64,000 bases of DNA. Source: Batillaria attramentaria (Eukaryota; Mollusca; Gastropoda; Batillariidae). The notes beneath the pieces were generated by a model. The model saw nothing but the letters and a program-made list of their open reading frames with translations. It was not told where the DNA came from and ran no database searches. The position numbers were made by a program, and so were the translations under genes. Positions within the stretch are counted from its first letter, which is position 1. Each line of letters begins with the position of its first letter. Positions 1,673 to 31,462 of this stretch are shown piece after piece. Location of the stretch: the NCBI GenBank assembly GCA_018292915.2, contig JACVVK020000482.1, positions 16,001 to 80,000 of the forward strand. Reading direction: 5' to 3'.

Positions 1673-1702
<30 letters not shown>

Positions 1703-1785: not shown

Positions 1786-1935
1786 AATAATAATAATAAT
1801 AATATGGGTACTTGAGGGACGCCCTCCCTCCTGGGGGAGCTCAGGGCGCCTTACAATGAGCACACACTCACTCACCCAGAAACACACAACATGCCTCCAC
1901 ACATACATTTAAGTACAAACACATAATGTCAAGTA

Positions 1936-1987
<52 letters not shown>

Positions 1988-2014
1988 TTAAGAACAAACA
2001 CATAATGTCAAGTA

Positions 2015-2056
<42 letters not shown>

Positions 2057-2790: not shown

Positions 2791-2963
2791 TGAAGTGTAA
2801 CAAAAGAGGGTGAGTTGTGTTCTCGTGGTACACTCATCGCATGCATCGTTCGTGGCCTGTTGCCAGCTGGCATGGTGAGTAGTCATCAGAAGGAGCGTCC
2901 CTCTTTCATGTGTTGGTCAAGGGTCCCATAATTTATGCTGTGTGGGGATTTCCGAAAATGCTG

Positions 2964-3095
2964 GGTCGTGAGTTCGAATCCCGCCGGCTGGGGCCAAATA
3001 TTTGTGCTGGCCTTTTTTCTCGTTGCCCCGTCTTTGATATCACCCTAATGTGATGGAAAAAGACGTTAAACTCCCAAACACTCAACCACCCAACC
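2964..3095 (+). mobile_element. tRNA-derived SINE, 5' truncated, present only in copy A
   Basis: It starts inside the tRNA head with the B-box-like GAGTTCGAATCCC. It then has the family's body (GGGGCCAAATATTTGTGCTG, GTTGCCCCGTCTTTGATATC) and tail (AAAAAGACGTTAAACTCCC, CAACCACCC). Direct repeats CCGAAAATGCTG at 2952-2963 and 3096-3107 flank it. Copy B has the empty site near 38099-38120, with one copy of the target. Confidence 0.9.
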
Positions 3096-3107
3096 CCGAA
3101 AATGCTG

Positions 3108-4680: not shown

Positions 4681-4728
<48 letters not shown>

Positions 4729-5185
4729 GGTATGTCACAGTCCGGTCTTTAAATGGACATTATTTTAATCATACTACTAATATCATTATTTAGGATCATG
4801 TATTATCGGAATTACCACAGAGTATATTTGTATGTTATGATATTCCTACTCTTATTTCATATTGTGCAGAGCGGGCACCAAAAGAAAATTTTCTGGTTTT
4901 TAAAGGACTTGACAATAAAGTTAATTTGATTTATTTGACTTGATTTGAAGGTTTGCACATAGAGTACAGCTTATAGTAGCAGTAAGCTTTCACTGCTTAG
5001 TAGTCTACCTCACCGTGTCTGGCTACTCCGGGGGTGCGGCGGCCCACAAAACTGCTGATTGTTAAGGGTCGATGGCATAAACACAAATCAGTACGCCCGT
5101 CCCACTTTGATAAATATTTTCTCAATTCTCGAGTGTTGGCGTGATCGTGAAAACCCGATGAAAAGACCAATTTTCACATTTTCAG
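3108..5185. other. Intronic or upstream stretch of copy A without recognised genes
   Basis: Homologous to 38120-40341 in copy B, where it is intron 1 of gene B. It holds (GT)n at 4688-4724 and a block near 4860-4950 ending in a TTGACTTGATTTG-type tail like those of LINE ends. No coding exon was recognised. Confidence 0.6.
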
Positions 5186-5416
5186 GCGAGCCTGTGGCAG
5201 ACTGCACTCAGTTCGTTACTGAAGGTGAAAACTTCACGTGTGAGTGTAAGTCACCCACTGGAGACACATCATGCAGACTGTCATGGCCCGGACATACAGA
5301 GGGACCTGTCCTGAACAAACGCGGTGTGAAGAGACAGGACAACGGAACTACGTTCACCTGTCAGATGGACTGTGATGGAACTCCTACCACCACGACAGTC
5401 ATTCTTAATATTGCAT
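5186..5416 (+). CDS. Gene A exon: Ig domain 1
   Basis: 231 bases, phase 1-1, acceptor TTTTCAG, donor GTAAGT. About 77 residues with several cysteines (DCTQ, FTCECKS, TSCRLSW, FTCQMDC) and a tryptophan, so an Ig fold with extra disulphides. NFT and NGT are N-glycosylation sequons; the first is absent from gene B. It is the most divergent exon between the two cassettes. Confidence 0.85.
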
Positions 5417-6168
5417 GTAAGTTACTGTGTTTCCACGTAGAAATGATAATTATGCAGTTTCGCAGGAAGAAAAGGAAAAGGAAGAAATGTTCAGAAGTCA
5501 TGATGTCATGATGCTGAATTGTATGCTGTATTTTCTTCCTTTCCACATTTCCTTCATTCATCACCTGCTCTATTCAGTTAGCGTAAACAATTGAGATGTG
5601 AACAGGGCGGCGTTCCATCTTGTGGAGCGTGTTCCACAATAGATTCTTTGCACTTGATCAAATATGAATGACTAGACATCGTACGGTAGCAGAGAAGTAA
5701 AAATTGGTGTAAATGATATTAGTTGGTAATATAATGAGACGTACATAAGTCAACACACATGAGATTCCTGCCACGTAAATAATTCTATGTGTTTTCTCCC
5801 AAGATGGACCATCTGCTGATGGTGTGCGTGTGACTGGTCCAGCATCATTCGTTACGGATGGAACAAGACCTCTAACACTGGCGTGTGAAGCAGGAGATGT
5901 CAATCCTCAGCCAACATACACGTGGAGGGGTGTGAATTGTGAGAATGGACCTACAGGCAGCGCTTGCGTCCTAACACCAAAGCACTGGCAAGACGGTAAA
6001 GACGTTGAGTGCAGGGTTACCAACGCACATACTACGACGACTACGACAGTGTCTGCAGTTTATCGCCTGAATCTGTCATGTGAGTCACACATAATCGCGT
6101 ACATTCATCTGATTATCTGATAACGCATGGCTAACCATCTGTAAAACAGATGTGCTTGAGAGAGTTCG

Positions 6169-6241
<73 letters not shown>

Positions 6242-6613
6242 GGGGGGGAGGCGGGTTGAGGCAGGATGTTAAGTAAATCATTATTATTATTATTACAACA
6301 GATCCGCCTCCATCACCACCCACGTTGTCAGGGTCAATAGTCCAAGCTGGAGACATCATCAACTGTACAGTGACTGGTGGAAAACCTCCCGTCTCCTCTG
6401 TACAGTTCTCCTGTTCTAACAACACTTGGCCTGACCAACCCGACACTACTGAAGGATCCACAGTGACCAGTTCACTCGTGTTGGTCAACGCTTCTGAGGG
6501 AGAAGTGAGGTGTCAGTGTTCAGCAAAATGGGAACCACAGCCTGAGTTGTACGGCACGCACAAACAAGACAGCATCATTATCGTTATGAGTAAGCGAAGT
6601 GAAAACGGCATCT

Positions 6614-6666
<53 letters not shown>

Positions 6667-8450: not shown

Positions 8451-8531
<81 letters not shown>

Positions 8532-11500
8532 CACAATGAGGTGCCCCCGATTACGGAAAATACACCACACGAGTTTATTGATTTCGACCGTAAAACTGCG
8601 AGTTTTAACGAGCAGTTTTACGGTCGAAATCAACAAACGAGTGTGGTGTATTTTACGTAATCGGGGGCACCGAATTGGGAAAATTGTTTATACCACGTCC
8701 CTACCTGCATTTCAAGTCTTTGATTTGAAAACTGACATCGGCAATCCAAATGCTTCACGCGACATCACTGACTGAGGTGCTTTACCTCGCTTTGTCCATA
8801 GGCTTTCAGAAGTCAGCTGGTCCGTTTCGAAGCCTCCGTCTTAGTAGAGAACTGGAACTAGGCTTACGCTTGTCACAAACACGACCGCTTGTTGATAACA
8901 CGCAGCCAAAGATCAACAATTTCACGTCAAGCGACTGGCAAAGCTCCTTCGTCCCCATTTCCGCACGAAGTCGAACTACGTCATGTCGTGACGTAAATTA
9001 TTCTTAGTCCCTTTTCGCGTCATAATTATTGTAACGCAAATCCTTTCACCAGAACACACTGCTGGAACACTGCTAGGGGTAATACCTGTTCACTCTTTAA
9101 GGCGATGTCACACTGAAAACAAGTTTCCCTGCTACGGTCAAGACATTCCTACCTTACTAGACACCCTTTTCTTGTATGTAGAACTTCAATGCGTATGAAA
9201 TACCTCTGGATGGGGTTTCTGGGTAAAGTCTTTTCCTTAAACATACATGTTGACTGAGCGGATACGGGAAGGTGTCACTTGACACTCCGCACGGCGGCTT
9301 TCATTGGTTGAAACACAAAACATGTTTTCGGATTTTAGGGCAGGCTCTAAAACTGTAAACACGATCGAAACAGTGTTTTGAAAACATTGTTGTGAAGTAT
9401 GTCACACGACAAAACACACTGTTTCGCAGCGAAACATCTGAAAACAATGTTTTCAAGTTGTTTTTGCCCTCTCGTGTGACATGGCCTTTAGGTACAGCCC
9501 TAAAATTCACGCGTGGTTGTCATGGGTACAATGTTATACCACGTGTGGTGAATTATGGATTTTATACCATGACTTGTAATAGTGGTAGAGTGGTCTAAAT
9601 GTATATATACGACTCTACCACTATTACAAGTCATGGTATAAAATCCATAATTCACCACATGTGGTATAACATTGTACCCATGACAACCACGCGTGAATTT
9701 TAGGGCTGTACCTAAAGAGTGAACATGTATTACCCCTAGCAGTGTTCCAGCAGTGTGTTCTGGTGAAAGGATTTGCATCACAATATGACGCGAAAAGGGA
9801 CTAAAGAATAATTTACGTCACGACATGACGTAGTTCGACTTCGTACGGAAATGGGGACGAAGGAGCTTTGCCAGTCGCTTGACGTGAAATTGTTGATCTT
9901 TGGCTGCGTTTTATAAACAAGCGGTCGTGTCTGTGACAAGCGTAAGCCTAGTTCCAGTTCTCTACTAAGACGGAGGCTTCGAAACGGACCAGCTGACTTC
10001 TGAAAGCCTATGGACAAAGCGAGCCGAGGTAAAGCACCCCAGTCAGTGATGTCTCGTGAAGCATTTGGATTGCCGATGTCAGCTTTCAAATCAAAGAAAT
10101 GCAGGTAAGGACGTGGTATAAATAATTTTTCCCAATTCGGTGCCCCCGATTACGTAAAATACACCACACTCGTTTGTTGATTTCGACCGTAAAACTGCTC
10201 GTTAAAACTCGCAGTTTTACGGTCGAAATCAACAAACTCGTGTGGTGTATTTTCCGTAATTGGGGGCACCTCATTGTGAAAACTCTTTATATATATATAT
10301 AATATATATATGTGTGTCTATCTGTCTGTCTGTCTACATATTAAACTCCCAAACACCCACCCACCCCTGTCTGTCTACATATCTATCTACCTGCCTTTCT
10401 GTCTATTCCTCTAGCAGTCTGTCTATCTAGCTATCTATCTCTTCTTCTTGTTCTTTGTTTCCTTCTGTGTATGCTTCATTTATGGTTTGTGTGTGTTTGT
10501 TTGATTTATTTATTTATTTTATTTATTTATTTATTTTATTTATTTATTTTTTTTTTGGGGGGGGGGGAGGGGGGGTGTATTTTTTTCGTTTATTTCTTTA
10601 TGTCCATTCTGTTTTCGTATGTGTTTATTTGTTAGGGAGGAGGATAAACGAAATGCTGTATCATCTTGTGTCTGCTGATTAACAGGCTCGGACAAACGAC
10701 AACTTCATGGCGGTGAACCGCAAGAAGATAACGAGCCGTCGCCTGGAGCAATTGTTGGTATTGTAATAGGACTGTTGCTTGTCATTGGCCTCATCGCCCT
10801 TGCTGTCATCATGATCATGAGAAAGACAAGAGGTATTTTATGCCATTCGTGAATAGAATACGACACAAGAGTACTTCCGTTTCTTCAACACTGAAGCATA
10901 GATATGAGTTCAGTTTTCTCCCTGAACCGTCTCTCATCTAAAATATTTTTCTTTGCGTGTGGAGTAGACCCCCAAGTACCCCACTAGATCAGTCTACTTC
11001 AGTTAAACGGGCAAATTCCATCTTCGCTAACCTAGCTTATGTTTTGGAGCAGATTCTCTCGTGAGTGTGCCTGTACGCTCGATATTCTCTATCATGATGA
11101 TTAGTACAGCTCTCAATGCGACACAATCTTGTTTACATTTTACGCGCGCGGTCGAGCATTCAAATTCTACGACTGTGGTTACATTGCTCAGCGTGAACGC
11201 CTCGTCATCTAGTACGCTTCTGTTGCATCAGTGCCAGCATCACAGACGCTGTGACTGTCCGGGTTTGTAACTGATGTAATGATAGGAACCACGAAAACAG
11301 CTCAGAACGATCTGTGAGCATCAAAATGGTAGTGTTAGCCCCTTTAATTGTCGAGTCCGCAACCAGTCTGCCACATTATCATTTTGTCCGAGACTCAGCA
11401 AGGATTATTGTTATTCTCACTTGCATACAGTAATTATACTGCAAGGAAAGGGTTTGACTGTTTCTTTACAAACTAGAGGGGCAAAGCCTCCTTGGCTCAC

Positions 11501-12811
11501 TTGTGAGATGGGTCAAGGTCATTCAAAAGAGTATGTTTGTAAAGCTATCCTGAAGTAAGATGTCTCTTGTGTTCATAGTTCCTGAGAAAATGGTTAATGG
11601 CAACATAACAATTTTCCAAGGACAGATTGTATCACCTTGACTTTGGGTCAAGGTCATTCAAATGAGATCTGTAAGTAAAGAGCTTATCAATGACTATCTT
11701 TATGCCATGTTTGATAGCTCTAGACTAGTTTTTGCAGCTTCTGTACAAATGGTAATGTAAAATTCACAACAGCTGTATTGACCTTGACCTTGAGTCAAGG
11801 TCATTCAAATGGGTATGTCTGCATAGGTCTCATTGCTGCCTATCATTGTGCCTTGTTTGGTGCCTCTGCTATTTGTTGTTTCCAAGAAAATGCTAACGTT
11901 AAGGTCTCCGGAAAACAATTTGAGTGGCCTTGACCTTGACTCAAGGAAATTGAATACAAGTATGCCAGTACAGGTTTTGTCAATGTCTATCATCATGCAA
12001 AGTTTGATGCCTCTGGTGTCCCTAGATTTTGAGAAAATGGAAATTGTAAATTTCCAGTGACAGATTTATTGAATTCAAACGGTATGTCTTGGAAGGTCTT
12101 ACTGCTGTCTATCAACAAACCAGGTTTGATGCTTCTACCATTTATTGTTTCTGAGAAAATGCCAACGTTAAGGTTTTGGAAGCATTTCTGCAAACAGCTT
12201 GTATGGCCTTGACCTTGACTCAAAGACACTGAATACAGGTATGTCAGTAAAGTTGTTGTCAATGTCTATCATCATGCAAAGTTTGATGTCTCTGGCTTTT
12301 CTGGATTCTGAGAAAACGCCAATGTAAAAGTTCCAAACAGACAGCTTTGGTGACCTTGACCTTGGATCAAGGTCAGTCAATATGGTATGTTTTGAAAGGT
12401 CTTACGGCTGTCTATCAGCACGCCAAGTTAGGTGTCTCTGCTATTCATTGTTTTTGAGAAAATGCCAATGTTAAGGTTTTGGAAGGTTTCCGCTAAAGAG
12501 CTTTTGTGGCCTTGACCTTGACTCAAAGTCACTGAATACAGGTATGTCAGCAAAGGTATTGTCAATGTCTATCATTATGCAAAGTTTGACGTCTCTTGCT
12601 TTTCTAGATTCTGAGAAAATGCCAATGAAAACTAGCAAACAGACAGCTTTAGTGGCCTTGACCTTGGGTCAAGGTCAATCAATATGGTATGTTTTGAAAG
12701 GTCTCATGGCTGTCTATCAGCAGGCCAAGTTTGGTGCCTCTGCTGTTTGTAGATTCTGAGAAAAAGCCAATGTTAAGGTTTACTGTGGACACACAGACAG
12801 ACAGACAGACA

Positions 12812-12882
<71 letters not shown>

Positions 12883-15800
12883 GACGGAGGCTATTACATA
12901 GACTCACTTTGTTACACAAGTGAGCCAAAAATGGACACATTACAATTTCACATGCCTTTACATAGATACTTCCTTACATATGGTTCTTCCAATTGTAATG
13001 ACAATGTTTTTTTCAGAGAAAAGGCGAAAATGCCGTGGAAACAGTTCCCCATCGTTGCCGAATGAGTTGGTGAACATCGAGGCTCCGTCTCAGAGTTGCG
13101 CGAACGGCCCGCAGGAATGCCGGCCAGTAGACTCTGGTGACTACACGCTCGTGGACGAGAAGGCTCCACTGTCAAAACCCGGCTCCTCTGAACTTGCCGG
13201 AGCAAAGGGTAAGCATGATGAGAATCATAGTGATATAGCTATCATACTGATGCAAAGTCTTGGCGGTGTCATATTCCCATTGGTCATTCGTGTTACAAGT
13301 GTGATATCGGCTAATATTGCGAAAACCAAAAAGGGAACAGTTGAAATGTTAATACCGCCCTAATATCCTATAAAGCCAACCATTACGTGTTGTACAGACA
13401 TGGATGTTCAGGCATCCCCTGGAGCAACCCACACCGTCAGTCCGTACGAAGATGTGGACGTGACTAGTCCGGCCTTCTCCACAGACACCTCCATCGCAAG
13501 CAACGGTCAAGCCGCAGCTCGTAGGCTCGAACCCGCAGCCCAGCAGGTCAGAGGCCCAGAAGGAGACCTCGACAGCCAGGTGAACAGGAAGCCAGTAGGA
13601 GGGGACGGTGGTTTTGCCGGCCGAGAGGATTCAGCTGAGCAGACGTCAGGTGTGGTGGACAAAGATGCATGTATTGTTATGTTGTGTGAGATGGATAATA
13701 GAAAATGGGCATAATTATGTGACGGGCTCTTACAGAGGGGGGAACAAAGGATGGTCTGGGACATATGGAGTTATATTGGTATCAGTGGAAAGCGCAGGAA
13801 AGAGGCTCTCTTTTGTTTAAAAAGTTGAGTTGTTTTTTTCTTCTTTTTCTTTTTCTTTTTCTCTTTGTTTGTTTGGTTGCTTTTTTTGGGTGGTGTCTAT
13901 TTTTTTTCTCTTACTGTTGTTTTTTGTCATTGTTGTTGCTGTTGTCATCTTATGGTCGTTTGTATTGTTGTCCCTGACAATTCTTATTTGTGATTCCCAT
14001 CACGGCTTTTACGCGCTTGATTGAATTGCAGTGAATATGACTATGTCTCTGGCACTTGCTGGAGCAAAGGGTAATAAGCATGATGATATCATAGTGATAT
14101 AGCTATCATACTGATACAAAGTCTTGGCGGTGTCATATTCCCATTTGGCATTCTCCACAGACACCTCCATCGCAAGCAACGGTCAAGCAACAGCTGGTAG
14201 GCCCGAACCCGCAGCACAGCAGGACAGAGGCCCAGAAGGAGACCTCGACAGCCAGGTGAACAGGAAGCCAGTAGGAGGTGACGGTGGTTTTGCCGGCCGA
14301 GAGGATTCAGCTGAGCAGACGTCAGGTGTGGTGGACGAAGATGCATGTATTGTTATGTTGTGTGAGATGGATAATAGAAAATGGGCATAACTATGTGATG
14401 GGCTCTTACAGAAGGGGGAACAAAGGATGGTCTGGGACATATGGAGTTATATTGGTATCAGTGGAAAGCGCAGGAAAGAGGCTCTCTTTTGTTTAAAAAG
14501 TTGCGTTTTGATTTTTGTTTTGTTTTGTTTTCTTTTTCTGTTTGTTTGTTTGGTTGGTTGGTTGGTTGGTTGGTTGCTTGGGGGGGGGGGGGGGGCGTCT
14601 ACGGGTTTTTCTATTGTTGTTTTGTCATTGTTATTGCTGTTGCTGTTGTCATCTTATGGTCGTTTGTATTGTTGTCCCTGTCAATTCTTATTTGTGATTT
14701 GCATCACGGCTTTTACGCGCTGGATTAACTTGCAATGAATATGACTATGTCTCTAGCACTTGCTGGAGCAAAAGGTAAGCATGTTGATATCATAGTGATA
14801 TAGCTATCATACTGATACAAAGTCTTAGCGGTGTCATATTCCCATTTGGCATTCTCCACAGACACCTCCATCGCAAGCAACGGTCAAGCAACAGCTGGTA
14901 GGCCCGAACCCGCAGCACAGCAGGACAGAGGCCCAGAAGGAGACCTCGACAGCCAGGTGAACAGGAAGCCAGTAGGAGGTGACGGTGGTTTTGCCGGACG
15001 AGAGGATTCAGCTGAGCAGACGTCAGGTGTGGTGGACGAAGATGCATGTATTGTTATGTTGTGTGAGATGGATATTAGAAAATGGGCATAATTATGTGAC
15101 GGGCTCTTACAGAGGGGGGAACAAAGGATGGTCTGGGACATATGGAGTTATATTGGTATCAGTGGAAAGCGCAGGAAAGAGGCTCTCTTTTTTTTAAAAG
15201 TTGAGTTTTTTTTTTTTTTTTTCTTTTTCTTTTTCTCTTTGTTTGTTTGGTTGCTTTTTTTAGGTGGTGTCTATTTTTTTTTCTCTTACTGTTGTTTTTT
15301 GTCATTGTTGTTGCTGTTGTCATCTTATGGTCGTTTGTATTGTTGTCCCTGACAATTCTTATTTGTGATTCCCATCACGGCTTTTACGCGCTTGATTGAA
15401 TTGCAGTGAATATGACTATGTCTCTAGCACTTGCTGGAGCAAAGGGTAATAAGCATGATGATATCATAGTGATATATAGCTATCATACTGGTACAAAGTC
15501 TTGGCGGTGTCATATTCCCATTTGTCATTCGTGTTACAAGTGTGATATCGGCTAATATTGCGGGAAAAAAAGAAAGGAAACAGTTGAAATGTTAATACCG
15601 CCCTAATATCCTATAAAGCCGACCATTACGTGTTGTACAGACATGAATGTTGACGCATCCCCTGAAGCAAGCCACACCGTCAGTCCGTACGAAGATGTGG
15701 ACGTGACTAGTCCGGCCTTCTCCACAGACACCTCCATCGCAAACAACGGTCAAGCCACAGCTCGTAGGCTCGAACCCGCAGCCCAGCAGGGCAGAGGCCA

Positions 15801-18800
15801 AAACAAGAAGCGAGCAGGAGGGGAAGGTGGTTTTGCTCTCCTAGAGGCTGGTGCTGAGAAGACGTCAGGTTTGGTTGACAAAGATGCATGTATTGTTATG
15901 TGTGAGATGAATAATGGAAAATGGGCATAACTATGTGATGGGCTCTTACAGAAGGGGGAACAAAGGATGGTCTGGGACATATGGAGTTATACTGGTATCA
16001 GTGGAAAGCGCACGAAAGAGGTTTTCTTTTGTTTAAAAAGTTGCGTTTTGATTTTTGTTTTGTTTTGTTTTCTTTTTCTGTTTGTTTGTTTGGCTGGTTG
16101 GTTGGTTGCTTGGGGCGGGGGGGGGGGGGGGGGGGCGTCTACGGTTTTTTCTATTGTTGTTTTGTCATTGTTATTGCTGTTGCTGTTGTCATCTTATGGT
16201 CGTTTGTATTGTTGTCCCTGTCAATTCTTATTTGTGATTTGCATCACGGCTTTTACGCGCTGGATTAACTTGCAATGAATATGACTATGTTTCTAGCACT
16301 TGCTGGAGCAAAGGGTAAGCATGTTGATATCATAGTGATATAGCTATCATACTGATACAAAGTCTTGGCGGTGTCATATTCCCATTTGGCATTCTCCACA
16401 GACACCTCCATCGCAAGCAACGGTCAAGCAACAGCTCGTAGGCCCGAACCCGCAGCACAGCAGGTCAGAGGCCCAGAAGGAGACCTCGACAGCCAGGTGA
16501 ACAGGAAGCCAGTAGGAGGTGACGGTGGTTTTGCCGGCCGAGAGGATTCAGCTGAGCAGACGTCAGGTGTGGTGGACGAAGATGCATGTATTGTTATGTT
16601 GTGTGAGATGGATAATAGAAAATGGGCATAATTATGTGATGGGCTCTTACAGAGGGGGGAACAAAGGATGGTCTGGGACATATTGGTATCAGTGGAAAGC
16701 GCAGGAAAGAGGCTCTCTTTTGTTTAAAAAGTTGAGTTGGTTTTTTTTTTCTTCTTTTTCTTTTTCTCTTTGTTTGTTTGGTTGCTTTTTTTAGGTGGTG
16801 TCTATTTTTTTTTCTTACTGTTGTTTTTTGTCATTGTTGTTGCTGTTGTCATCTTATGGTCGTTTGTATTGTTGTCCCTGACAATTCTTATTTGTGATTC
16901 CCATCACGGCTTTTACGCGCTTGATTGAATTGCAGTGAATATGACTATGTCTCTAGCACTTGCTGGAGCAAAGGGTAATAAGCATGATGATATCATAGTG
17001 ATATATAGCTATCATACTGGTACAAAGTCTTGGCGGTGTCATATTCCCATTTGTCATTCGTGTTACAAGTGTGATATCGGCTAATATTGCGAAAAAAAGA
17101 AAGGAAACAGTTGAAATGTTAATACCGCCCTAATATCCTATAAAGCCGACCATTACGTGTTGTACAGACAAGAATGTTGACGCATCCCCTGAAGCAAGCC
17201 ACACCGTCAGTCCGTACGAAGATGTGGACGTGACTGGTCCGGCCTTCTCCACAGACACCTCCATCGCAAACAACGGTCAAGCCACAGCTCGTAGGCTCGA
17301 ACCCGCAGCCCAGCAGGTCAGAGGCCCAAACAAGAAGCGAGCAGGAGGGGGAGGTGGTTTAGCTCTCCTAGAGGCTGGTGCTGTGGAGACGTCAGGTTTG
17401 GTTGACAAAGATGCATGTATTGTTATGTGTGAGATGAATAATGGAAAATGGGCATAACTATGTGATGGGCTCTTACAGGGGGGGGGGGGGGGGGGGAACA
17501 AAGGATCGTCTGGGACATATGGAGTTATACTGGTATCAGTGGAAAGCGCACGAAAGAGGTTTTCTTTTGTTTAAAAAGTTGCGTTTTGATTTTTGTTTTG
17601 TTTTGTTTTCTTTTTCTGTTTGTTTGTTTGTTTGGTTGGTTGGTTGGTTGCTTGGGGGGGGGGGGGGGGCGTCTACGGTTTTTTCTATTGTTGTTTTGTC
17701 ATTGTTATTGCTGTTGCTGTTGTCATCTTATGGTCGTTTGTATTGTTGTCCCTGTCAATTCTTATTTGTGATTTGCATCACGGCTTTTACGCGCTGGATT
17801 AACTTGCAATGAATATGACTATGTCTCTAGCACTTGCTGGAGCAAAGGGTAAGCATGTTGATATCATAGTGATATAGCTATCATACTGATACAAAGTCTT
17901 GGCGGTGTCATATTCCCATTTGGCATTCTCCACAGACACCTCCATCGCAAGCAACGGTCAAGCCGCAGCTCGTAGGCCCGAACCCGCAGCCCAGCAGGTC
18001 AGAGGCCCAGAAGGAGACCTCGACAGCCAGGTGAACAGGAAGCCAGTAGGAGGGGACGGTGGTTTTGCCGGCCGAGAGGATTCAGCTGAGCAGACGTCAG
18101 GTGTGGTGGACGAAGATGCATGTATTGTTATGTTGTGTGAGATGGATATTAGAAAATGGGCATAATTATGGGGAACAAAGGATGGTCTGGGACATATGGA
18201 GTTATATTGGTATCAGTGGAAAGCGCAGGAAAGAGGCTCTCTTTTGTTTAAAAAGTTGAGTTGGTTTTTTTTTTCTTCTTTTTCTTTTTCTCTTTGTTTG
18301 TTTGGTTGCTTTTTTTAGGTGGTGTCTATTTTTTTTCTCTTACTGTTGTTTTTTGTCATTGTTGTTGCTGTTGTCATCTTATGGTCGTTTGTATTGTTGT
18401 CCCTGACAATTCTTATTTGTGATTCCCATCACGGCTTTTACGCGCTTGATTGAATTGCAGTGAATATGACGATGTCTCTAGCACTTGCTGGAGCAAAGGG
18501 TAAGCATGTTGATATCATAGTGATATATAGCTATCATACTGATACAAAGTCTTGGCGGTGTCATATTCCCATTTAGCATTCTCCACAGACACCTCCATCG
18601 CAAGCAACGGTCAAGCCGCAGCTCGTAGGCTCGAACCCGCAGCCCAGCAGGTCAGAGGCCCAGAAGGAGACCTCGACAGCCAGGTGAACAGGAAGCCAGT
18701 AGGAGGTGACGGTGGTTTTGCCGGCCGAGAGGATTCAGCTGAGCAGACGTCAGGTGTTGTGGACAAAGATACATTTATTGTTATGTTGTGTGAGATGGAT

Positions 18801-20699
18801 AATGGAAAATGGGCATATAATTATGTGACGGGCTCTTGCAGAGGGGGAACAAAGGATGGTCTGGGACATATGGAGTTATATTGGTATCAGTCGAAAGCGC
18901 ACGAAAGAGGCTTTGGGTGTTTGTTGTTGTTGTTGTTGTTGTAGTTTTTTGTTTGTTTGTTTGTTTTTTCTTTTTCTCTTTGTTTGTTTGGTTGCTTTTT
19001 TGGGTGGTGTCTATTTTTTTCTCTTTCTGTTGTTTTTTTGTCATTGTTGTTGCTGTTGCTGTTGTCATCTTATGGTCGTTTGTATTGTTGTCCCTGACAA
19101 TTCCTAATTGTGATTTACATCACGGCTTTTACGCGCTTGATTGAATTGCAGTGAATATATAGCTATATAGCTATCATACTGATACAAAGTCTTGGCGGTG
19201 TCATATTCCCATTTAGCATTCTCCACAGACACCTCCATCGCAAGCAACGGTCAAGCCGCAGCTCGTAGGCTCGAACCCGCAGCCCAGCAGGTCAGAGGCC
19301 CAAACAAGAAGCCAGGAGGAGGGGAAGGTGGTTTTGCCGTCCGAGAAGATGGAGCTGAGCAGACGTCAGGTGTGGTTGACAAAGATGCATGTATTGTTAT
19401 GTGTGAGATGAATAAAGGAAAATGGGCATAACTATGTGATGGGCTCTTACAGAAGGGAGACAAACAGTGATCTGGGCATATGGAGTTACTGGGAAAGCAC
19501 AGAAAAAGAGACTTTCTTTTGTTGCGCTTTGTTTTGTTTTTCTTTTGTGTTTTGTTTTGTTTTCTTTTTCTCTTTGTTTGTTTGGTTTCTTTTTTTTTTC
19601 TTTTTTGCTTTCGCTGTTGTCACCTTATGGCCGCTTGTATTGTTGTCCCTGACAATTCTTATTTGTGATTAACATCACTTTTTTAACGCGCTTGATTGAT
19701 TTGCAATGAATATGACTGTATCTCAAATTCATGCGTGCTTTGATCTGGTAAGACAAAAACATTATTATATATTTCATCACAGGCTCTGCAAACGTGGCAG
19801 ACGTCCCAGGACTACCAAATGCAGGGGGAGAAAATGCAAGACAGGTACGCCCATTGTAGGTTCAGTGCTCATTATTATTCATTATGTCATTGATTTGATG
19901 ACAATTAAGAAACATTCCCAGATATCAGAAGAAGGATGGCATTCCTCTGGTCCCACTAGTTTTGGGGCCAATTTTAACCTCGCACGACAGCCGATTCTTT
20001 TTTTAATGCTGCTTTGGATCTCTAACTTCAGCCACTATCTCCTGGTTAAAAACTGCTCAGAAACTGTCCTACTTAAAACGGATCAAAATAAATGCCACGC
20101 CATAGTGTTGTCTCCCTTGGGCTTTACGACTGAGCCGAACTATGATGTACTGAGCTGAAAAAGATCAGAGCCCGTATGTAAAAGTCGAGGTTAATTTAAC
20201 CTACAGCTACTGGCCTGACCCAGACTAGGACAAAAGAAACCCCAAAACAAACTTAACTAAAAAAGGAATCGAAGAAAGAAAGACAAAAATCCTTCTATAA
20301 CGGCGTAGGCACCTTGATGGAATGGACCCGCTTCCTGATTTAAAAAAAAAAAAGAGAGAGAGAAAATTTAACCCTAGAGCTAGTTTAGTTCGAGGTTAGA
20401 CTCTAACCAAGGGCTAAAATCTCCAACCTCCACTTCTACATGCGGGCCCTGGGCTAAGCCGTGGGACTAAGACGAAACACCACGTGCTTTTTGCTGTACG
20501 GCACAGTGCGCAGGTTACTCATGATGGAGGTGGATTTCTCGGCTTCGCTCCCGTACTGAATACACTATTGTTGTTGTTGTCACAGGGGAACACACAGGAC
20601 GGAGACGAAGAGGACGGAACTTATGACAAGCTGTGCCACGACCGGCCCACTCCCACAACACACTCTGTTCCTGAACAAGTCTACAGCCACATCAACTGA
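5186..20699 (+). CDS. Gene A: Ig-superfamily transmembrane receptor with expanded cytoplasmic exon array (5' end not found)
   Basis: Spliced gene inferred from GT/AG exons: Ig1 5186-5416, Ig2 5804-6079, Ig3 6302-6589, transmembrane 10686-10832, tail 13017-13208, up to nine tandem tail exons and four optional 39-base exons within 13398-19369, then 19783-19844 and a final exon 20586-20699 ending YSHIN-stop. Every internal exon is phase 1-1 except the last junction, which is phase 0. The product should be a type I plasma-membrane protein with an Ig ectodomain. Its cytoplasmic tail has tyrosine motifs YTLV, YEDV, YDKL and YSHI. Gene B has its signal-peptide exon just before the duplicated segment; here the position is occupied by LINE and repeat DNA, so the 5' exon is missing or lies upstream of the window. 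Role (immune or adhesion) is inferred from the family; transcripts would decide which exons are used. Confidence 0.75.
5804..6079 (+). CDS. Gene A exon: Ig domain 2
   Basis: 276 bases, phase 1-1, acceptor TCTCCCAAG, donor GTGAGT. Ig pattern LTLACEAG, then YTWRG, then KDVECRVTNA, followed by a TTTTTT stretch and YRLNL. Joins Ig1 through a split codon to give IAYGPSADG, a usual link between Ig domains. Confidence 0.87.
6302..6589 (+). CDS. Gene A exon: Ig domain 3
   Basis: 288 bases, phase 1-1, acceptor ACAACAG, donor GTAAGC. Starts YPPPSPP after splicing. Ig-like cysteines in IINCTVTGG, VQFSCSNNTW and VRCQCSA; sequons NCT, NNT and NAS. One codon longer than the gene B exon. Confidence 0.85.
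6718..6875 (+). repeat. Hairpin repeat with (CT)n and (CA)n tail, copy 2
   Basis: Same core as at 1330 (ACGGCAAGTTTGAAAA to CCGTTTTCAAATAAAA), followed by a long CT tract and a CA tract. It lies just past the right edge of the duplicated cassette. Confidence 0.7.
7050..7890. mobile_element. Element with long, diverged terminal inverted repeats
   Basis: The left block (7085-7260: GATAGGACCCG, then AGTGCGTTTGGTATCTCAGT, then GTTGACGAT) recurs inverted on the right (about 7690-7806: ACTGGATTACCAAATGCACT, then CGGGTCCTATC). The arms are about 150-200 bp and imperfect. No transposase frame inside. Probably a non-autonomous DNA element in intron 3 of gene A; ends and target duplication unresolved. 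Confidence 0.5.
8196..8527. repeat. Compound (TCTG/TCTA)n, (TA)n and (GA)n microsatellite
   Basis: About 260 bases of TCTG/TCTA tetranucleotides, then TA repeats (8456-8484) and GA repeats (8486-8527). It abuts the foldback element. Long frames here are repeat artefacts. Confidence 0.9.
8524..10286. mobile_element. Foldback element, 1.76 kb palindrome with hairpin termini
   Basis: The left arm (8524-9096 plus 9491-9597) is matched in reverse complement by the right arm (about 9604-10286). Outer ends read AGAGTTTTCACAATGAGG and CCTCATTGTGAAAACTCT. Each terminus is itself a palindrome of about 145 bp (GGTGCCCCCGATTACGG ... GTAATCGGGGGCACC). The centre near 9600 is a short AT-rich loop. No transposase frame. 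It lies in intron 3 of gene A. A 388 bp insertion at 9100-9487 interrupts the left arm only. Confidence 0.85.
9100..9487. mobile_element. PIF/Harbinger-like MITE inside one arm of the foldback
   Basis: 388 bp with terminal inverted repeats AGGCGATGTCACAC / GTGTGACATGGCCT (one mismatch) and a TTA duplication at 9097-9099 and 9488-9490. The right arm of the palindrome has the unoccupied site (reverse complement CACTCTTTAGGTACAGCC). A 3 bp TTA/TAA target duplication is known for PIF/Harbinger elements, hence the tentative assignment. No coding capacity. Confidence 0.75.
10287..10685. other. Simple-sequence stretch before the transmembrane exon
   Basis: TA repeat, TCTG/TCTA repeats, a short SINE-tail piece (TTAAACTCCCAAACACCC near 10345), TTTA repeats and a G run. 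It ends at acceptor TTAACAG of the next exon. Confidence 0.7.
10686..10832 (+). CDS. Gene A exon: transmembrane segment
   Basis: 147 bases, phase 1-1, donor GTATTT. An acidic/polar juxtamembrane part (GGEPQEDNEPSPG) leads into a strongly hydrophobic run (IVGIVIGLLLVIGLIALAVI), then basic MRKTR as a stop-transfer. The GGEPQ motif is shared with the gene B transmembrane exon, so the two are probably ancient homologues. Confidence 0.85.
10833..11469. other. Intron 4 of gene A, first part
   Basis: Unique-looking sequence with no exon recognised. A short motif near 11310-11345 (GATCTGTGAGCATCAAAA ... GCCCCTTTAA) resembles one near 51665-51705 and may be a degraded interspersed repeat. Confidence 0.4.
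11470..12945 (+). repeat. Interspersed repeat with internal reiterations and TCAAGGTCA sites, copy 1
   Basis: Begins GCAAAGCCTCC ... GGCTCACTTGTGAG. Ends after (CAGA)n/(AC)n (about 12790-12879) with GACGGAGGC and ACAAGTGAGCCAAAAATGG, so its ends are imperfect inverted repeats. The interior repeats a block of roughly 300 bp (CCTTGACCTTGACTCAA ..., AAGTTTGGTGCCTCTGCTGT, TTCTGAGAAAATGCCAATG). TCAAGGTCA or its complement recurs, often as GACCTTGA-N-TCAAGGTC. A second copy is at 62190-62990. Confidence 0.75.
13017..13208 (+). CDS. Gene A exon: first cytoplasmic tail exon
   Basis: 192 bases, phase 1-1, acceptor TTTTTTTCAG, donor GTAAGC. Begins with basic EKRRKC just after the membrane, continues polar, and contains SGDYTLVDEKAPL, a YxxV motif. 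Ends LAGAKG, an ending recreated by the 39-base mini-exons of the array. Confidence 0.82.
13398..13649 (+). CDS. Array exon 1 (full length, type A)
   Basis: 252 bases, phase 1-1, acceptor TTGTACAG, donor TCAG|GTGTGG. Contains VSPYEDVDV (fits S-x-Y-x-x-V) and the repeat core DTSIASNGQA ... EQTS. It can instead end at CAG|GTCAGA after 13546 (phase 0, directly compatible with the last exon) or read on to a stop at 13712-13714. Confidence 0.75.
14032..14070 (+). CDS. Optional 39-base mini-exon after unit 1
   Basis: Acceptor GAATTGCAG, donor GTAATA, phase 1-1, encoding VNMTMSLALAGAKG across the junctions. Its end copies the end of exon 13017-13208. Use is uncertain. Confidence 0.4.
14161..14325 (+). 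CDS. Array exon 2 (short, type A)
   Basis: 165 bases, phase 1-1. Its acceptor CTCCACAG is formed from bases that are exonic in unit 1. Lacks the YEDV part. Confidence 0.65.
14862..15026 (+). CDS. Array exon 3 (short, type A)
   Basis: 165 bases, phase 1-1, same CTCCACAG acceptor and TCAG|GTGTGG donor; nearly identical to exon 2. Confidence 0.65.
15407..15445 (+). CDS. Optional 39-base mini-exon after unit 3
   Basis: Acceptor GAATTGCAG retained, donor GTAATA, phase 1-1, same peptide ending LAGAKG. Confidence 0.4.
15641..15868 (+). CDS. Array exon 4 (full length, type B)
   Basis: 228 bases, phase 1-1, acceptor TTGTACAG, donor TCAG|GTTTGG. Keeps SPYEDVDV. The middle is replaced by a shorter basic stretch (NKKRAGGEGG), and the internal CAG|GTCAGA donor is lost. 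Confidence 0.7.
16402..16566 (+). CDS. Array exon 5 (short, type A)
   Basis: 165 bases, phase 1-1, acceptor CTCCACAG, donor TCAG|GTGTGG. Confidence 0.65.
16936..16974 (+). CDS. Optional 39-base mini-exon after unit 5
   Basis: Acceptor GAATTGCAG and donor GTAATA kept, phase 1-1. Confidence 0.4.
17168..17395 (+). CDS. Array exon 6 (full length, type B)
   Basis: 228 bases, phase 1-1, acceptor TTGTACAG, donor TCAG|GTTTGG. Keeps SPYEDVDV and the NKKRAGG segment. Confidence 0.7.
17936..18100 (+). CDS. Array exon 7 (short, type A)
   Basis: 165 bases, phase 1-1, acceptor CTCCACAG, donor TCAG|GTGTGG. Confidence 0.65.
18461..18499 (+). CDS. Optional 39-base mini-exon after unit 7
   Basis: Acceptor GAATTGCAG, donor GTAAGC (the stronger form also found at exon 13017-13208), phase 1-1. 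Confidence 0.4.
18589..18753 (+). CDS. Array exon 8 (short, type A)
   Basis: 165 bases, phase 1-1, acceptor CTCCACAG, donor TCAG|GTGTTG. The mini-exon region after it is deleted. Confidence 0.62.
19229..19369 (+). CDS. Array exon 9 (short, type B-like)
   Basis: 141 bases, phase 1-1, acceptor CTCCACAG, donor TCAG|GTGTGG. Combines the short 5' form with the PNKK middle of type B, so it is a recombinant of the two types. Confidence 0.62.
19783..19844 (+). CDS. Gene A exon: penultimate tail exon
   Basis: 62 bases, phase 1 in and phase 0 out, acceptor CATCACAG, donor GTACGC. Encodes SANVADVPGLPNAGGENARQ. It joins in frame to the last exon. Confidence 0.65.
19845..20585. other. Last intron of gene A
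   Basis: No exon or known repeat recognised; only short A-rich and GA stretches near 20341-20363. Confidence 0.5.
20586..20699 (+). CDS. Gene A exon: last tail exon and stop
   Basis: 114 bases, phase 0 in, acceptor TTGTCACAG. An acidic GDEEDGTYDKL motif and the final EQVYSHIN before TGA (20697-20699). YDKL and YSHI are YxxL/I motifs 16 residues apart. Confidence 0.8.
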   Translation, partial: GNTQDGDEEDGTYDKLCHDRPTPTTHSVPEQVYSHIN

Positions 20700-20747: not shown

Positions 20748-20870
20748 AGGGGTGGCCGCATTGTAGAGTGTTGGACTTCTAATGCTCGGGTCGTCAGTTC
20801 GCATCCCGGCTGGGGCAAAATATTTGTGATGGCGTTTTTATCGTTGCCCCGTCTTTGATATAACTTGTTT
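20748..20870 (+). mobile_element. tRNA-derived SINE, 5' portion (split by LINE copy 1)
   Basis: Head GGTGGCCGCATTGTAGAGTG (A-box-like) and CAGTTCGCATCCC (B-box-like), then the family body. The sequence breaks at GATATAACTTGTTT, where a 5.2 kb LINE enters; the SINE resumes at 26031 with GTGGTGGAAAGGGAC. Confidence 0.82.
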
Positions 20871-21035
20871 TTTTTTTTGTTTTTTTTTTTTGGAACCTCA
20901 GTTGCATGCAGGCCGCTCAAAACCTTTTTATTTATTTATTTTGTTTTCATTTTTTTTTTTCATTTTTTACATTTTTTTTGGCTGATCGGCCTCTCTTCAT
21001 TGGTTCCCCAGTGATTTTAAATTAATGTTTTGAAA

Positions 21036-24000
21036 TTAGTGCATGGACAGATGTCTTAAGTGAGCTTCATTTTCGAACAAGCTTATTATGTTTGTTGGTG
21101 TACCGTACCTGTATTTACTTATACACATTTTGCCAATTAAAATTACATGATTAAGAAACTGACATCTCTCCTTAGAGATGCCGCCCTTGTCCGTTATCCC
21201 AAATAGTACATGTACAGAATTCAAAACAATACAGTGCCCAAATTTACAATTAATAATATTTTCAATGTGTTTCCATAATACCTTCACACGCTTACATTCA
21301 AAGAAAAAATGCTCAATATAGTCAACCTGGTCTGGACAAAATGGACAGTTTTTACTTTCAGTTATTCCTATCTTATACAAAAGGATATTAGTAGGATAAA
21401 TATTGTGCAAAATTTTCCATTGTAACTCACGTAATCTTGTTTCTTTTGTAGTCTGATATGCAAGTTTCCAATGGGCTTGGTTAATATCGATGTTAAACTT
21501 GTAACGCCAAAAGCGAATAACACAGGGTGGGCTGTAACGTTTCTGTACAATCTGTTTACGAATGTTTTTGGCTGAGGTAATCTTTTCTCCATTGAGACAA
21601 AGAGCCATTTGCTTTTCTGTTTGCATTTGTACATAGTCTGGGTTTTCTTTTAAGAACTTTGTAACGGCGGAAGATACTACTATATATTCTAAACATAAGC
21701 TAGGTGATGGACCAATTAGCTGTTCAATTTGTAACAGAGACATCATACCATTTGCCAGTAGTAAGTCATTTACATAGGTAATACCTTTCTTGGCCCATCT
21801 TCTAAAGTAAATAGGTTTCGACTGATACAATATACGATCATTGTTCCATATACACATCATATTGAATTCAGTACTTGTCCTTGGAGTTGTGTTGTGCGTT
21901 AACCAGGATCGTATTACTGAGGTCCAGAAAGCTGATTTCACAAACTCAAGCCCTTTAAATCTGGAATACTCAATGGGATTATTAAAACACGCTAAATTTA
22001 CCCCAAAATTGCTCAGCCATATATTCGGAATCTGTGTCCATGTAGTGTCTGGATTTGTGTTGGAGAGATTTATCATCCAATTGCAGAGAAATGATTGCTG
22101 CATGATGCACATGTCGATCATTTTTATACCTCCCTTTTCTGTTTCGCTGTTTATTACCACTCTTTTAACTTTTTCAAATGCTTTTTTTGTTACAGTTCTT
22201 TTTTCTCCACAGGAATCTGTATAAAATAGTATTTATTTCTTTCAAAGCGCCGTCAGGAATACGTATTGCTTGCATTACATGTATGAACTGAGATATGAGA
22301 TAGCTTTTGATAATACATAATTTTGCTAAAAGTCCCAAGTTCCTTTTTTCCCAGCTTGAAATAATCTGCTTAATTTTTATCATTCGTTCCTTCCAATTGA
22401 GTTCAATTTCGGAAGCACAGCAGTTGCTGCTAAAGTATATACCCAAAATTTTAATCTGTTTCACCCACCTAAGTCCCAATTCACCATCATTCCCACCTCC
22501 ACCATCATTTCCACCACCACCAAGCCACATGGCTTCCGTTTTATGTCTGTTTAAACTTAATCCTGAAAAAACTGAAAATATTTCTAGTGTTTGTAAGACA
22601 CTCTGTATGTCCTGTATGTCTCGCAGGAACATAGTAACGTCATCTGCATACAGCAGGGTCTTTATTATACGTTGTGTATCGAAAGCTAGACCTTTGACGT
22701 TTTCACTTTGCTTAAACCGTATTGCCAGAAGTTCTATGCCGATAGTGAAGGCAAGACATGAAAATGGGCAACCCTGTCTAATTCCGGATTTAATTTCGAA
22801 GTCGTCAGACAGCCATCCGTTGTAACCAATACAGCTTCTTGTTTGATTAAATAATGTATAGACCCAATGTATGAAGTTTTCACCAAAACCAAATTTTCTA
22901 AAAGCATACAGCATGTATTTTTTGGAGATATTGTCAAAAGCTTTTTGGAAATCCAGCGCTAGTAAAATACCAGTCTTTTTTTTAATCTTACAGTATTCTA
23001 TCACATCATCAATAGTTCGTATAGTAGTTGATACATTTCTTCCTTTGATGTACCCAACCTGATCTCCATGTACCAACTTGTCAATAACTTTACACACTCT
23101 ACTAGCAAGACATTTTGCCAGGATTTTATAATCTGTATTAGTTAATGAAATTGGTCTCCAATTTGAAAGCTTGTTTTTCGGAAGATTTTTACCTTTGTGT
23201 ATCAGTGTCAGAACTGCAGATGTTTGGGTGTATGACAAGGATCCTTTTTGGAAGGATTCGTTAAAAGACTGGACGATAACGTTTCTGAGTTTTGACCAAA
23301 AGAACTTAAGGAATTCTGTGGTGAGTCCATCTAAGCCTGGGGAAGAACCATTTTTTAACATTTTTAAAGCCTATGAGGCTTCTTCAACTGTTATCAAACC
23401 CTACCAATTTTTCATTTCCTCTTCTGATAAGCATGGGACATTACAGTCTTTTATAAATGCATCAACCTTGTTTTCAATCGGAGCGTCAGACGTATCTCGA
23501 TTGTACAGAGTTTCAAAATAACGTTTTTGTTCTGTTAAAATGTCTAATTGGTCCGTCAAAAAAGTTCCATTTTCCGTCTCAATGCTAGAAAATAATTTTG
23601 CATTTGCACGAGATTTTTCTAGATTTAAGAAATATTTTGTGTTTTTTTTCCCCCTCCTCAATCCATTTTACTTTGGATCTGGTCTGAGCACTCTTTAGAC
23701 GTTCATGTTCCAAAAGATCTAATGAAAATTTCAGATTTTCCCGATTTTGTAGCAAAAGGGCGTTTTGGGGTTCTTTCGCTAAACGGGTCTCACATTCATT
23801 AAGTTTTGCTGATAACTCAACATATCTATTCTTTTTGTGGATTGCACGATTTTTGCTATATTCAACTGATTCAGTTTTAATTTTTAATTTCAGCATCTCC
23901 CATTTTTGTTCTGCTTTTTCGTAGATTTCACAATTGAGAAAAGTGTCAATAACTAGATTCATTTTATCAATAATTTTTTTCTCTCTGAGTAAGGAGTTAT

Positions 24001-24755
24001 TGAACTTCCAGTAGCCTGGACCTATTTTATTTTATCAAATCGTAAACAGAGAAAAATTCCCCTATGGTCCGACGTAGGTACAGAGAAAAAATTAATCTCC
24101 GATGCTTTGTCCAAAGCTGCGTCATTTACGAATATGTAGTCCAATCTCCGGGCGACGAAATTGTCATTAGTTTTTTTCTCGACCAGGTGTACTCCCGGGT
24201 GTCTGGGTTATTTACTCTCCATAGATCACTTAGTTCGCACTCATTTTTAAAACTATTGAAATCATTTACCACGGCCGAGGGATGTTTCTCTCCACTTATT
24301 ATGTCGAGATCATTGTTCATGACTGCATTAAAATCGCCACATACAATAATGCGTTCATAGTTGCAATTTTGTATTGTTCTTGTTAAGAAGTGAAAAAAAT
24401 CTCTATTGTCTTTTTGACTGAGTGCATAATATACATTAAACACACAGGTTTCTTCGTTTTCAACTCTCACGTTGATTGCCAAGATCCTGGAATCAGTAAC
24501 ATGAGAGGACCATTCAAACGGAAAGTGCTTTCTTATCAATATTACTTGTCCTTTGCTGTGTGTAGACCCAACAGAATACACTAACTCCCCTCCCCATTCA
24601 TTCTTCCATGCATCTGCTACATTCTGGGTAATATAAGTTTCTTGTAAGCATATTATATCATACTTTTTTTCCTTGAAAAGTCTAAATAGCTTTTTTCCTT
24701 TCACTCTATTTCGTAGTCCACGTACATTCAACGAAATTATTTGAAGGATGTCCAT
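21036..24755 (-). pseudogene. LINE copy 1 ORF2 (endonuclease/reverse transcriptase), disrupted
   Basis: Same protein as the intact ORF2 of copy 2 but cut into pieces: 24755-24126, 23962-23585, 23661-23401, 23361-22174 and 22160-21036. The breaks are two extra T near 24175, indels near 24025 and 23968, one extra T near 23647, a stop near 23402 and one extra T near 22186. Most are homopolymer length changes, so some could be assembly errors. Two polymerase boxes (DFQKAFDN, LLYADD) remain readable. Confidence 0.88.
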
Positions 24756-24852
24756 TTAAAGTAAATAAAGTAAATAATTACATCGCAAATCAATCGGAAT
24801 GTCCGGGGGACGGGCTTGGGTCGTCAGGAAGTCAAGTGATAACTGGGCAAGA

Positions 24853-25890
24853 TCACTTCACGGAGTCGTCGTCGTCGTAGTCATCGTGATCGTTTGCAAG
24901 AGCGGTAAGTCGGTCAGAGATGCGTCGCTGAGCGTGCAGGGCCTGACGTGAATGCTTGTGACTCTCTGGGCTGCTCTTGTCTGTCGGTCGGCGGCGTTTC
25001 ACGGACTCCGAACGGCTACGCGGCGGGACGATACCGAGCGATGAGGAGATGCTACTCTGTCGCAGCTTCGCACGCGCGGACCCTCGGGCGTCACTGTTTA
25101 GAGCTGTATTTTCGACAGCCGCATTAGACGTCTCCACCGCCCCTGACCCCTGACCTACACCCTCTACGTCGGGCCTCTCGCTACCTGCTTCTGTCTGCTG
25201 CAGCACTGGCGAAACGAAGTCCGTGCGTGTAGCAAACTCACATGCCGGGTCACCTCGCTTGTGTCCACTCTCTCTGCATGCTCGGCACACAACCTTGTTC
25301 GTGCACCCTGATACATGGTGCCCTTCTTCCAAACACTTTGAGCAAACCAATTTGCTCTTTGCTTGCTCTTTGTGGTAAACGGATGCCGAGAAGAAGCTGA
25401 CAGTCATAGTCTTTTCAAGGGGGGTTGTTGGTACTGTTATGAAAACAAACCTTCGTCCTGTTAGAAACCGGGTGAGCTTGTTGTCATTGTCCCTCGCTCT
25501 CTCATGTTTTATTTCGGACCTCAACTCACACCCTATAGCAGAGAGAGAATGTTCAATCTCCGAGTCGGCTACAGACATGGGCAACCTGTCTATGTACACT
25601 TTTGTGGAGGGTTTTTCTTCTCCGGTGTTGTCTCGGAGTGTGTAAGGGTTATTTTCACATACCTGCAGAGTTACGTTCCGTAACCGTATGCCTTTGATTA
25701 GAAGCTCGTTCCTTGCCTCACGGGTGGTAGGGTAGATTCTCCACAAACCTCTAATCTCTTGTGCGCCGACGACGGTGCCCACACCGGCGGTACGCTCTGT
25801 GGCTAGACACATTTCCAAGACTGTAGGACGCTGCTCCATCGCATCTGGAATATCTCGCCTTTTCAGGAAAACAGGCAGTGCTGTAGACAT
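24853..25890 (-). CDS. LINE copy 1 ORF1 (nucleic-acid-binding, zinc-knuckle protein)
   Basis: 345 residues, intact. Zinc knuckles at roughly residues 180-215: CSKCLEEGHHVSGC (C-x2-C-x4-H-x4-C), then CRACRESGHKRGDPAC. The C-terminus is basic/serine-rich and ends with an acidic DDYDDDD run. In this LINE type ORF1 binds the RNA to form the retrotransposition particle. About 97 bp separate it from ORF2. A few residues differ from copy 2. Confidence 0.88.
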   Translation of the reverse strand: MSTALPVFLKRRDIPDAMEQRPTVLEMCLATERTAGVGTVVGAQEIRGLWRIYPTTREARNELLIKGIRLRNVTLQVCENNPYTLRDNTGEEKPSTKVYIDRLPMSVADSEIEHSLSAIGCELRSEIKHERARDNDNKLTRFLTGRRFVFITVPTTPLEKTMTVSFFSASVYHKEQAKSKLVCSKCLEEGHHVSGCTNKVVCRACRESGHKRGDPACEFATRTDFVSPVLQQTEAGSERPDVEGVGQGSGAVETSNAAVENTALNSDARGSARAKLRQSSISSSLGIVPPRSRSESVKRRRPTDKSSPESHKHSRQALHAQRRISDRLTALANDHDDYDDDDSVK

Positions 25891-26044
25891 CTTGCTTTAC
25901 TGGTAATGTCCAAGGTAAAACGAAACAAGAAACAAGAAAAACAGTACAAACCGACCGGCGAAAGAAAACGTAGCCGGGCTCAGTATCGGTGCGTGAATAC
26001 TGCAAACTCAGCGGTCAACACAGCTCAGCCGATATAACTTGTTT

Positions 26045-31364: not shown

Positions 31365-31425
31365 ATGAGTGTTTTGTGGATGTTGCTGTTCTTCGCCTTC
31401 TCACAATGGAACAGTTACTGTCTGG
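31365..31425 (+). CDS. Gene B exon 1: signal peptide
   Basis: Starts MSVLWMLLFFAF and ends SYCLG, 61 bases, donor GTAAGT, phase 1 out. Splicing to 40342 gives CLGEPVTDC. The following (CT)n is the left edge of the duplicated cassette, so this exon lies just outside it. Confidence 0.82.

Positions 31426-31462
<37 letters not shown>

Follow-up and report, generated by a model that had tools for sequence, protein, structure and literature searches.

The window analysed here, a 64-kb stretch of Batillaria attramentaria contig C482 (C482:16001-80000; coordinates are window positions unless marked as contig), carries a receptor-like gene on its forward strand, designated gene A, and two neighbouring genes of the same family, B and C. 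The coding sequence of gene A comprises exons for three Ig-like domains, Ig1 (5186..5416, 231 nt, phase 1-1), Ig2 (5804..6079, 276 nt) and Ig3 (6302..6589, 288 nt), a transmembrane (TM) exon (10686..10832, 147 nt), a first tail exon named A0 (13017..13208, 192 nt, including YTLV), an array of nine similar exons, a tail exon 3′ of the array (19783..19844, 62 nt, phase 1 to 0), and a terminal coding exon (20586..20699) which contains YDKL and YSHI and closes with a TGA stop. The published gene model P0005 (BaRGS_00035672), a partial protein of 924 aa, starts at Ig2 and includes Ig3, the TM exon, all nine array units and the exon 3′ of the array. The Ig1 exon is absent from this partial model; its region 5191-5412 is matched by family member P0001 at 53% (tblastn). 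No signal exon for gene A was found within the 64-kb window. A candidate is situated 2.4 kb to the left of it (contig 13576-13636), with 20 residues identical to the gene B signal exon at 31365-31424, the start exon common to both genes being hydrophobic as judged by eye. On the basis of position and homology, we infer that this exon belongs to gene A, and the idea of a gene without a start was rejected, as a signal exon is present upstream on the contig. With signal, Ig1-Ig3, TM, A0, nine units and two last exons, gene A appears intact over its whole coding length.

With a putative signal peptide, Ig-like domains and one predicted TM helix, gene A is best classified as a type I receptor of the Ig superfamily. 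The Ig identity is based on matches to PDB sequences, on the Pfam C2-set_2 assignment of P0001, and on the beta-rich character of Ig2 in a structural model of otherwise low confidence. Gene A matched SYG-2 (2.8e-6), and P0001 matched carcinoembryonic antigen (CEA, 2.8e-8) and CD22 (0.0015) in addition to SYG-2. P0001 passed the Pfam cut-off for C2-set_2, and the Pfam matches of P0005 were all below cut-off. In the predicted structure, which was obtained from a five-sequence alignment and had a mean pLDDT of 42.3 with 788 of the 924 residues (most of Ig3 among them) under 50, beta strands were found in Ig2 (pLDDT blocks 53-87), no confident fold in Ig3, and the TM helix at residues 207-240 (P0005 numbering). 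From residue 242 on, the model stays below pLDDT 50 nearly throughout and has neither helix nor strand; the composition of the tail is disorder-promoting, and the tail is predicted to be disordered. By their location downstream of the TM exon, the array units are placed in the predicted cytoplasmic part of the protein.

Genes B and C have a common tail, different from that of gene A. The ectodomain regions of genes A and B (1420-6645 and 31431-41831) correspond to each other as a segmental duplication, with 90-96% identity depending on the piece, and the gene B copy carries the second of two LINE-type elements. These elements (20868-25970 and 31710-36803) are 99.0% identical over 5.1 kb; the latter contains an open endonuclease/reverse-transcriptase frame of 1237 aa alongside a separate frame of 347 aa, and the former is broken into several frames. 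A further receptor paralogue seems to be present upstream, at C482:1-9000 of the contig (L014, L013), where matches of about 90% to the gene A/B ectodomain and to the gene B/C tail regions were recorded. Tandem arrays with a 16-nt unit (GGGAACATAGACCTGG and its complement) are located at 44942-45262 and 52484-53227, close to the tail exons of genes B and C, and are traversed by open frames. An intron of gene A contains a foldback-type element with inverted arms (8524-9099 and 9713-10286) of about 580 nt and 94.9% identity. Related tandem repeats, whose units measure about 145 or 303 nt and contain words resembling GGCCTTGACCTTGA and TCAAGGTCA, are located in the intron just before A0 (11925-12781) and towards the right-hand end of the window (62456-62883).

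The array of nine tail exons spans 6.3 kb, all of it on the forward strand. Three units are long, composed of an 87-nt part followed by a core: unit 1 (13398..13649, 87+165 nt), unit 4 (15641..15868, 87+141 nt) and unit 6 (17168..17395, 87+141 nt). The six others are short, of 165 nt in units 2 (14161..14325), 3 (14862..15026), 5 (16402..16566), 7 (17936..18100) and 8 (18589..18753), and of 141 nt in unit 9 (19229..19369). Positions and lengths of the nine tandem exon cores (252, 165, 165, 228, 165, 228, 165, 165 and 141 nt), as given by the sequence-only reading of this DNA, were exact; all nine have phase-1 borders, an AG acceptor and a GT donor, and are free of stops in frame. Its proposal that inclusion of any subset would keep the reading frame also held, since every core begins with AC and ends with G, so that the codon at each inter-unit junction is always GAC. 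As proposed, tails of very different length are possible, between 123 codons if the array is left out entirely and 681 if every unit is included, the stop being counted in both. The nine lengths are not independent, as they are built from three blocks, i.e. the 87-nt part of units 1, 4 and 6, the 165-nt core, and the 141-nt form of the core that results from one 24-nt deletion, and nine in-frame lengths are for this reason less striking than they look. Array introns 1-8, if retained, would introduce 3-9 stops each.

The YEDV motif is limited to units 1, 4 and 6, as had been noted, and is there part of SPYEDV, a match to the ITIM pattern [ILVS]xYxx[ILV] that occurs in the tail only in these three units. 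No match to this pattern was found in the constant tail, where YTLV, YDKL and YSHI fail it. Depending on unit content, 0 to 3 strict ITIM-type motifs per tail are possible, and the three copies of SPYEDV make the gene A tail a candidate ITIM-bearing tail by pattern match.

The origin of the array can be followed at its junctions. At the junction that founded it, intron sequence resembling the unique right flank (TGAATATGACT...TCTC) leads into the last ~20 nt of A0, copied into the array units, and its donor, which indicates that the tandem duplication started inside A0 and extended as far as the intron that follows the array exon. The relic of the A0 end in intron 1 (14032..14070, forward strand) is an open, potential mini-exon of 39 nt with phases 1-1. 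Similar relics are found in introns 2-7, with the acceptor AG in introns 1, 3, 5 and 7 and AA in introns 2, 4 and 6, and in intron 8 the AG of the relic has been kept and the remainder lost. The mini-exon at 14032..14070 is not claimed as a real exon, having an acceptor score of -1.2 and being absent from the published model. The six short units have in common a deletion of about 190 nt between CATTC and CCTTC, which removed the outer acceptor together with the 87-nt SPYEDV part, so that the intron now abuts TCCACAG, a sequence that is coding in the long units. The frame survived this deletion because both acceptors precede AC in the same phase. The 24-nt deletion is common to units 4, 6 and 9. 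Neighbouring blocks of two units differ at 27 of 1522 aligned positions (98.2% identity), and the nearest relatives of a unit differ between exon halves and intron halves, which is a mark of recombination or conversion. As read from these junctions and block identities, the array, which consists of paralogous exons and flanking intron repeated in tandem, arose by duplication from within A0, one deletion of about 190 nt, and subsequent two-unit expansion and recombination. With 3,304,085 SNPs published for the 715.7-Mb genome (PMC10382545), SNP density is by division 0.46%, and the divergence of the two-unit blocks is about four times that value.

As a repeat, the array is far beyond chance. 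In a search of the genome (715.3 Mb on 863 contigs; published as 863 contigs and 715.7 Mb, PMC10382545) with the tail as query, all 12 matches at E<=0.001 were on gene A's own exons, and no second copy of the tail was found at this threshold with 17 of 17 candidates scored. Among public proteins, the 169-aa tail query had no match at E<=10 among 122 candidates, and the 643-aa tail region had one match, the same gene (P0005, 99% identity), among the 8000 scored candidates that shared most words with it. One unit intron gave at least 42 matches in the genome (40 of 53 candidates scored). Ten of these are in gene A, corresponding to the nine unit introns, the last one partial, and a piece of the A0 intron; the 32 others are at most 140 nt long, fall mostly on query positions 61-228, and belong mostly to an old dispersed repeat. 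With ten matches in gene A and short pieces elsewhere among the 40 candidates scored, the array as a dispersed element was rejected. Within each unit intron, about 100 nt (14391-14499 and equivalents) derive from the old dispersed repeat, which is present on many other contigs at 74-85% identity.

Repeats of this type may be produced by the assembly itself, either as inflated copy number or as misjoined units, and the genome was highly heterozygous and was assembled from PacBio Sequel subreads with FALCON-Unzip and haplotig purging (PMC10382545). No two units are identical, however, as all 36 pairs differ in exon or clean intron, intron indels differ between units, and the 6.3 kb of the array compare with sheared fragments of about 20 kb (PMC10382545). 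An assembly artefact is, consequently, highly improbable, and the array is real, intact-looking, young and unusual.

The Batillaria annotation was merged from Augustus predictions, Trinity transcripts and protein homology (PMC10382545), and the presence of all nine units in the published model supports their being coding, short of proof; the model was presumably made on the same assembly and is hence not independent sequence. Units 8 and 9 begin in P0005 at an extra in-frame AG 12 nt upstream (18577 and 19217; in unit 8 between TTTAG and CATT), which scores 0.7 versus 2.6 for the nearer AG; the other short units have no such upstream AG.

It may be that only unit 1 is used, units 2-9 being neutral pseudo-exons that are open merely because the expansion is young, a reading we regard as possible and somewhat doubtful. 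It agrees with the substitution pattern over all nine cores, in which 24 distinct nonsynonymous and 8 synonymous changes give a pN/pS of 1.00; sums over the 36 unit pairs, which are non-independent, were similar (core pN 0.075, pS 0.076). Likewise, cores were less diverged than clean introns in just 18 of the 36 pairs, although in 16 of the 21 pairs that remain without units 4 and 6. For the 40 inferred substitutions (33 in cores and 7 in the 87-nt part; Fitch reconstruction on an average-linkage tree, recombination being ignored), 1.3 stops were expected and none was seen, an outcome with a P of 0.26 by chance. The indels point in the other direction. In the 406 clean intron columns, counted, like the introns in the comparisons above, after exclusion of the low-complexity middle (alignment columns 175-338) and the right flank, 10 of the 12 distinct indel events were not multiples of three, whereas the 165 core columns had one event, the 24-nt deletion, and no frameshifting indel. 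The probability of observing no core frameshift was 0.033, rising to 0.065 without G-run events and to 0.18 when events of the diverged last intron were also left out. The six 165-nt cores alone had a pN/pS of 0.33, on 4 + 4 changes (P 0.10), which also speaks against pseudo-exons; with unit 9 added the value was 0.66 (P 0.53). The inclusion of all nine units in the published model is a further argument against them.

Between units 4 and 6, all 6 changes were nonsynonymous (P 0.19). Units 1 and 4, including the 87-nt part, differed by 20 nonsynonymous and 2 synonymous changes (Fisher P 0.07), and units 1 and 6 gave a P of 0.047. Positive selection on the long units is not claimed from the pairs 1/4 and 1/6, which are two of several examined and are not independent. 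Altogether, the evidence for selection is mixed and weak, with upkeep of the frame weakly supported and upkeep of the amino-acid sequence unproven, and the pattern of constraint fits a disordered spacer and young pseudo-exons alike.

Splice signals were scored with an approximate consensus matrix. On this scale, donors scored 5.2 in units 1, 2, 3, 5, 7 and 9, 0.8 in units 4 and 6 (both GTTTGG) and 0.6 in unit 8 (GTGTTG), so that donors of five of the six short units are among the best of gene A, in which the donors of the other exons ranged from 0.1 to 5.4. The splice sites of units 2, 3, 5, 7 and 9 score as well as those of most other gene A exons, which speaks against pseudo-exons; the poorer donors of units 4, 6 and 8 would suit them. 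The Ig3 and TM donors score just 0.1 and must be used, and therefore the 0.8 donors of units 4 and 6 are alone no sign of skipping. Among the acceptors, the outer one of the long units scored 1.6, equal to that of A0, those of the short units 2.6-3.0, and an internal in-frame acceptor of the long units 4.8. The first base after this internal acceptor is 13485 in unit 1 (following TTCTCCACAG, forward strand), with equivalents at 15728 and 17255, and its choice is predicted from the sequence to drop the 87-nt SPYEDV part in frame. Of the units that bear the tyrosine, units 4 and 6 have donors poorer than those of six of the nine units, and the competing internal acceptor is present in units 1, 4 and 6 alike; internal acceptor and poorer donors together would most likely be the handle for any tuning of the tail.

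The same signals bear on constitutive inclusion of all nine units, by which the array would be an extended, disordered spacer that adds three tyrosines, with no tuning. The published model, which joins all nine, the good splice scores of five of the six short units, the donors of units 4, 6 and 8, which are no worse than those of Ig3 and TM, and the disorder-promoting composition and disordered predicted structure of the tail are all in line with it. Less easily reconciled with it are the donors of 0.6-0.8 in units 4, 6 and 8 against 5.2 in the others, and the internal acceptor of the long units, which scores better than the outer one. We consider constitutive inclusion a possible account, albeit at well below even chance; it overlaps with the explanation preferred below and contradicts only the part that concerns tuning.

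Splicing of one unit per mRNA, as in the ectodomain clusters of Dscam, is very improbable. Tandem duplication of exons is frequently associated with mutually exclusive choice (PMC9013439), and a 19-nt stretch in seven units is 79% complementary to one site (20514-20532). The seed of this complementarity is 10 nt long, and about 28 such seeds are expected in 7.7 kb of random sequence, a number multiplied by the repeats; none of the 19 inverted pairs inspected as competing RNA structures was convincing. Moreover, the published model joins all nine units, their frame-neutral borders do not bar joint inclusion, and the units differ in content and by up to 111 nt in length.

The preferred explanation is that the tail of an Ig-family receptor grew longer when one symmetric exon (phase 1-1) was recently duplicated in tandem, and that the array exons are spliced into mRNA. 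The resulting tail would be long and disordered, each long unit contributing an ITIM-type tyrosine (SPYEDV) and each short unit a tyrosine-free spacer. The anatomy, the duplication and deletion junctions, the recombination mosaic of the units, the single copy in the genome search and the presence of all nine units in the published model are shown at the sequence level. That the array exons are used in mRNA, yielding a disordered tail of motif and spacer units, we judge slightly the more probable outcome, with constant inclusion and variable content contributing to this judgement about equally. Less certain is that the number of tyrosine motifs per protein varies (0-3), which would come about through omission of long units, through use of the internal acceptor with in-frame loss of the motif and, between individuals, through unequal crossing-over. 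An inhibitory-motif dose adjustable in this manner, in the cell by skipping or acceptor choice and between animals by unequal crossing-over, with short units setting the reach, is rather unlikely. If the exons are used, the array would serve as a natural experiment on tail length and ITIM number within a single receptor, one that is clean and of recent date.

Arrays of this general kind have several counterparts. The variant exons of CD44 form a tandem array of cassette type. In CEACAM and Siglec/CD22 receptors, the number of ITIMs is fixed by single exons. Gene A resembles the latter in its Ig ectodomain (with similarity to CEA and CD22 via P0001), its TM segment and a tail with [ILVS]xYxx[ILV], and differs from them in that its ITIM-type motifs, candidates for function only, are in repeated exons. 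Tandemly duplicated exons are reported for about 10% of animal genes (PMC9013439), and gene A shares with these the tandem copies of one exon within a gene; unlike the general case, the copies are nine in number, young, located in an intracellular tail, and a mosaic of two exon types. Among gastropods, no receptor with repeated tail exons was evident, by title and start of abstract, among the few open-licence papers retrieved.

The sequence-only reading knew of no described receptor family organised in this way, and the implied lack of precedent does not stand. Tail exons of arthropod Dscam are included or skipped, seven of them in shrimp, and in Daphnia an ITIM is among the sequences that can be included or excluded (PMC6851185). 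Gene A is comparable in its potentially optional tail exons, and differs in that the Dscam tail exons are individually numbered, with two mutually exclusive pairs, tandem copies of one exon not being described in the available part of that account. The closest precedent is the chicken BG system of the butyrophilin family, in which tandem, frame-neutral tail exons of about 21 nt (18-24) number 13-36 in one haplotype and vary in number between genes, tail isoforms are produced by splicing, and BG1 has an ITIM (PMC5938342, PMC4046983). Gene A has in common with BG a multigene Ig-type receptor, a long tail of tandem frame-neutral exons, and a first codon split after one base. The BG repeat exons encode heptads, thought to form a coiled coil, and BG tails, as far as these sources describe them, change mainly by intron read-through (PMC5938342, PMC4046983), whereas the gene A exons are of 141-252 nt, are predicted to be disordered with no tail helix, carry a tyrosine motif inside some of the repeats, and are separated by introns 1-8, each with its several stops. 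With many tandem frame-neutral tail exons and neither the 21-nt heptads nor the coiled coil, gene A is not classed as a BG or butyrophilin member. If its array exons are used, repeated-exon tails would have evolved separately in immune-type receptors of a snail, independent of the vertebrate BG genes.
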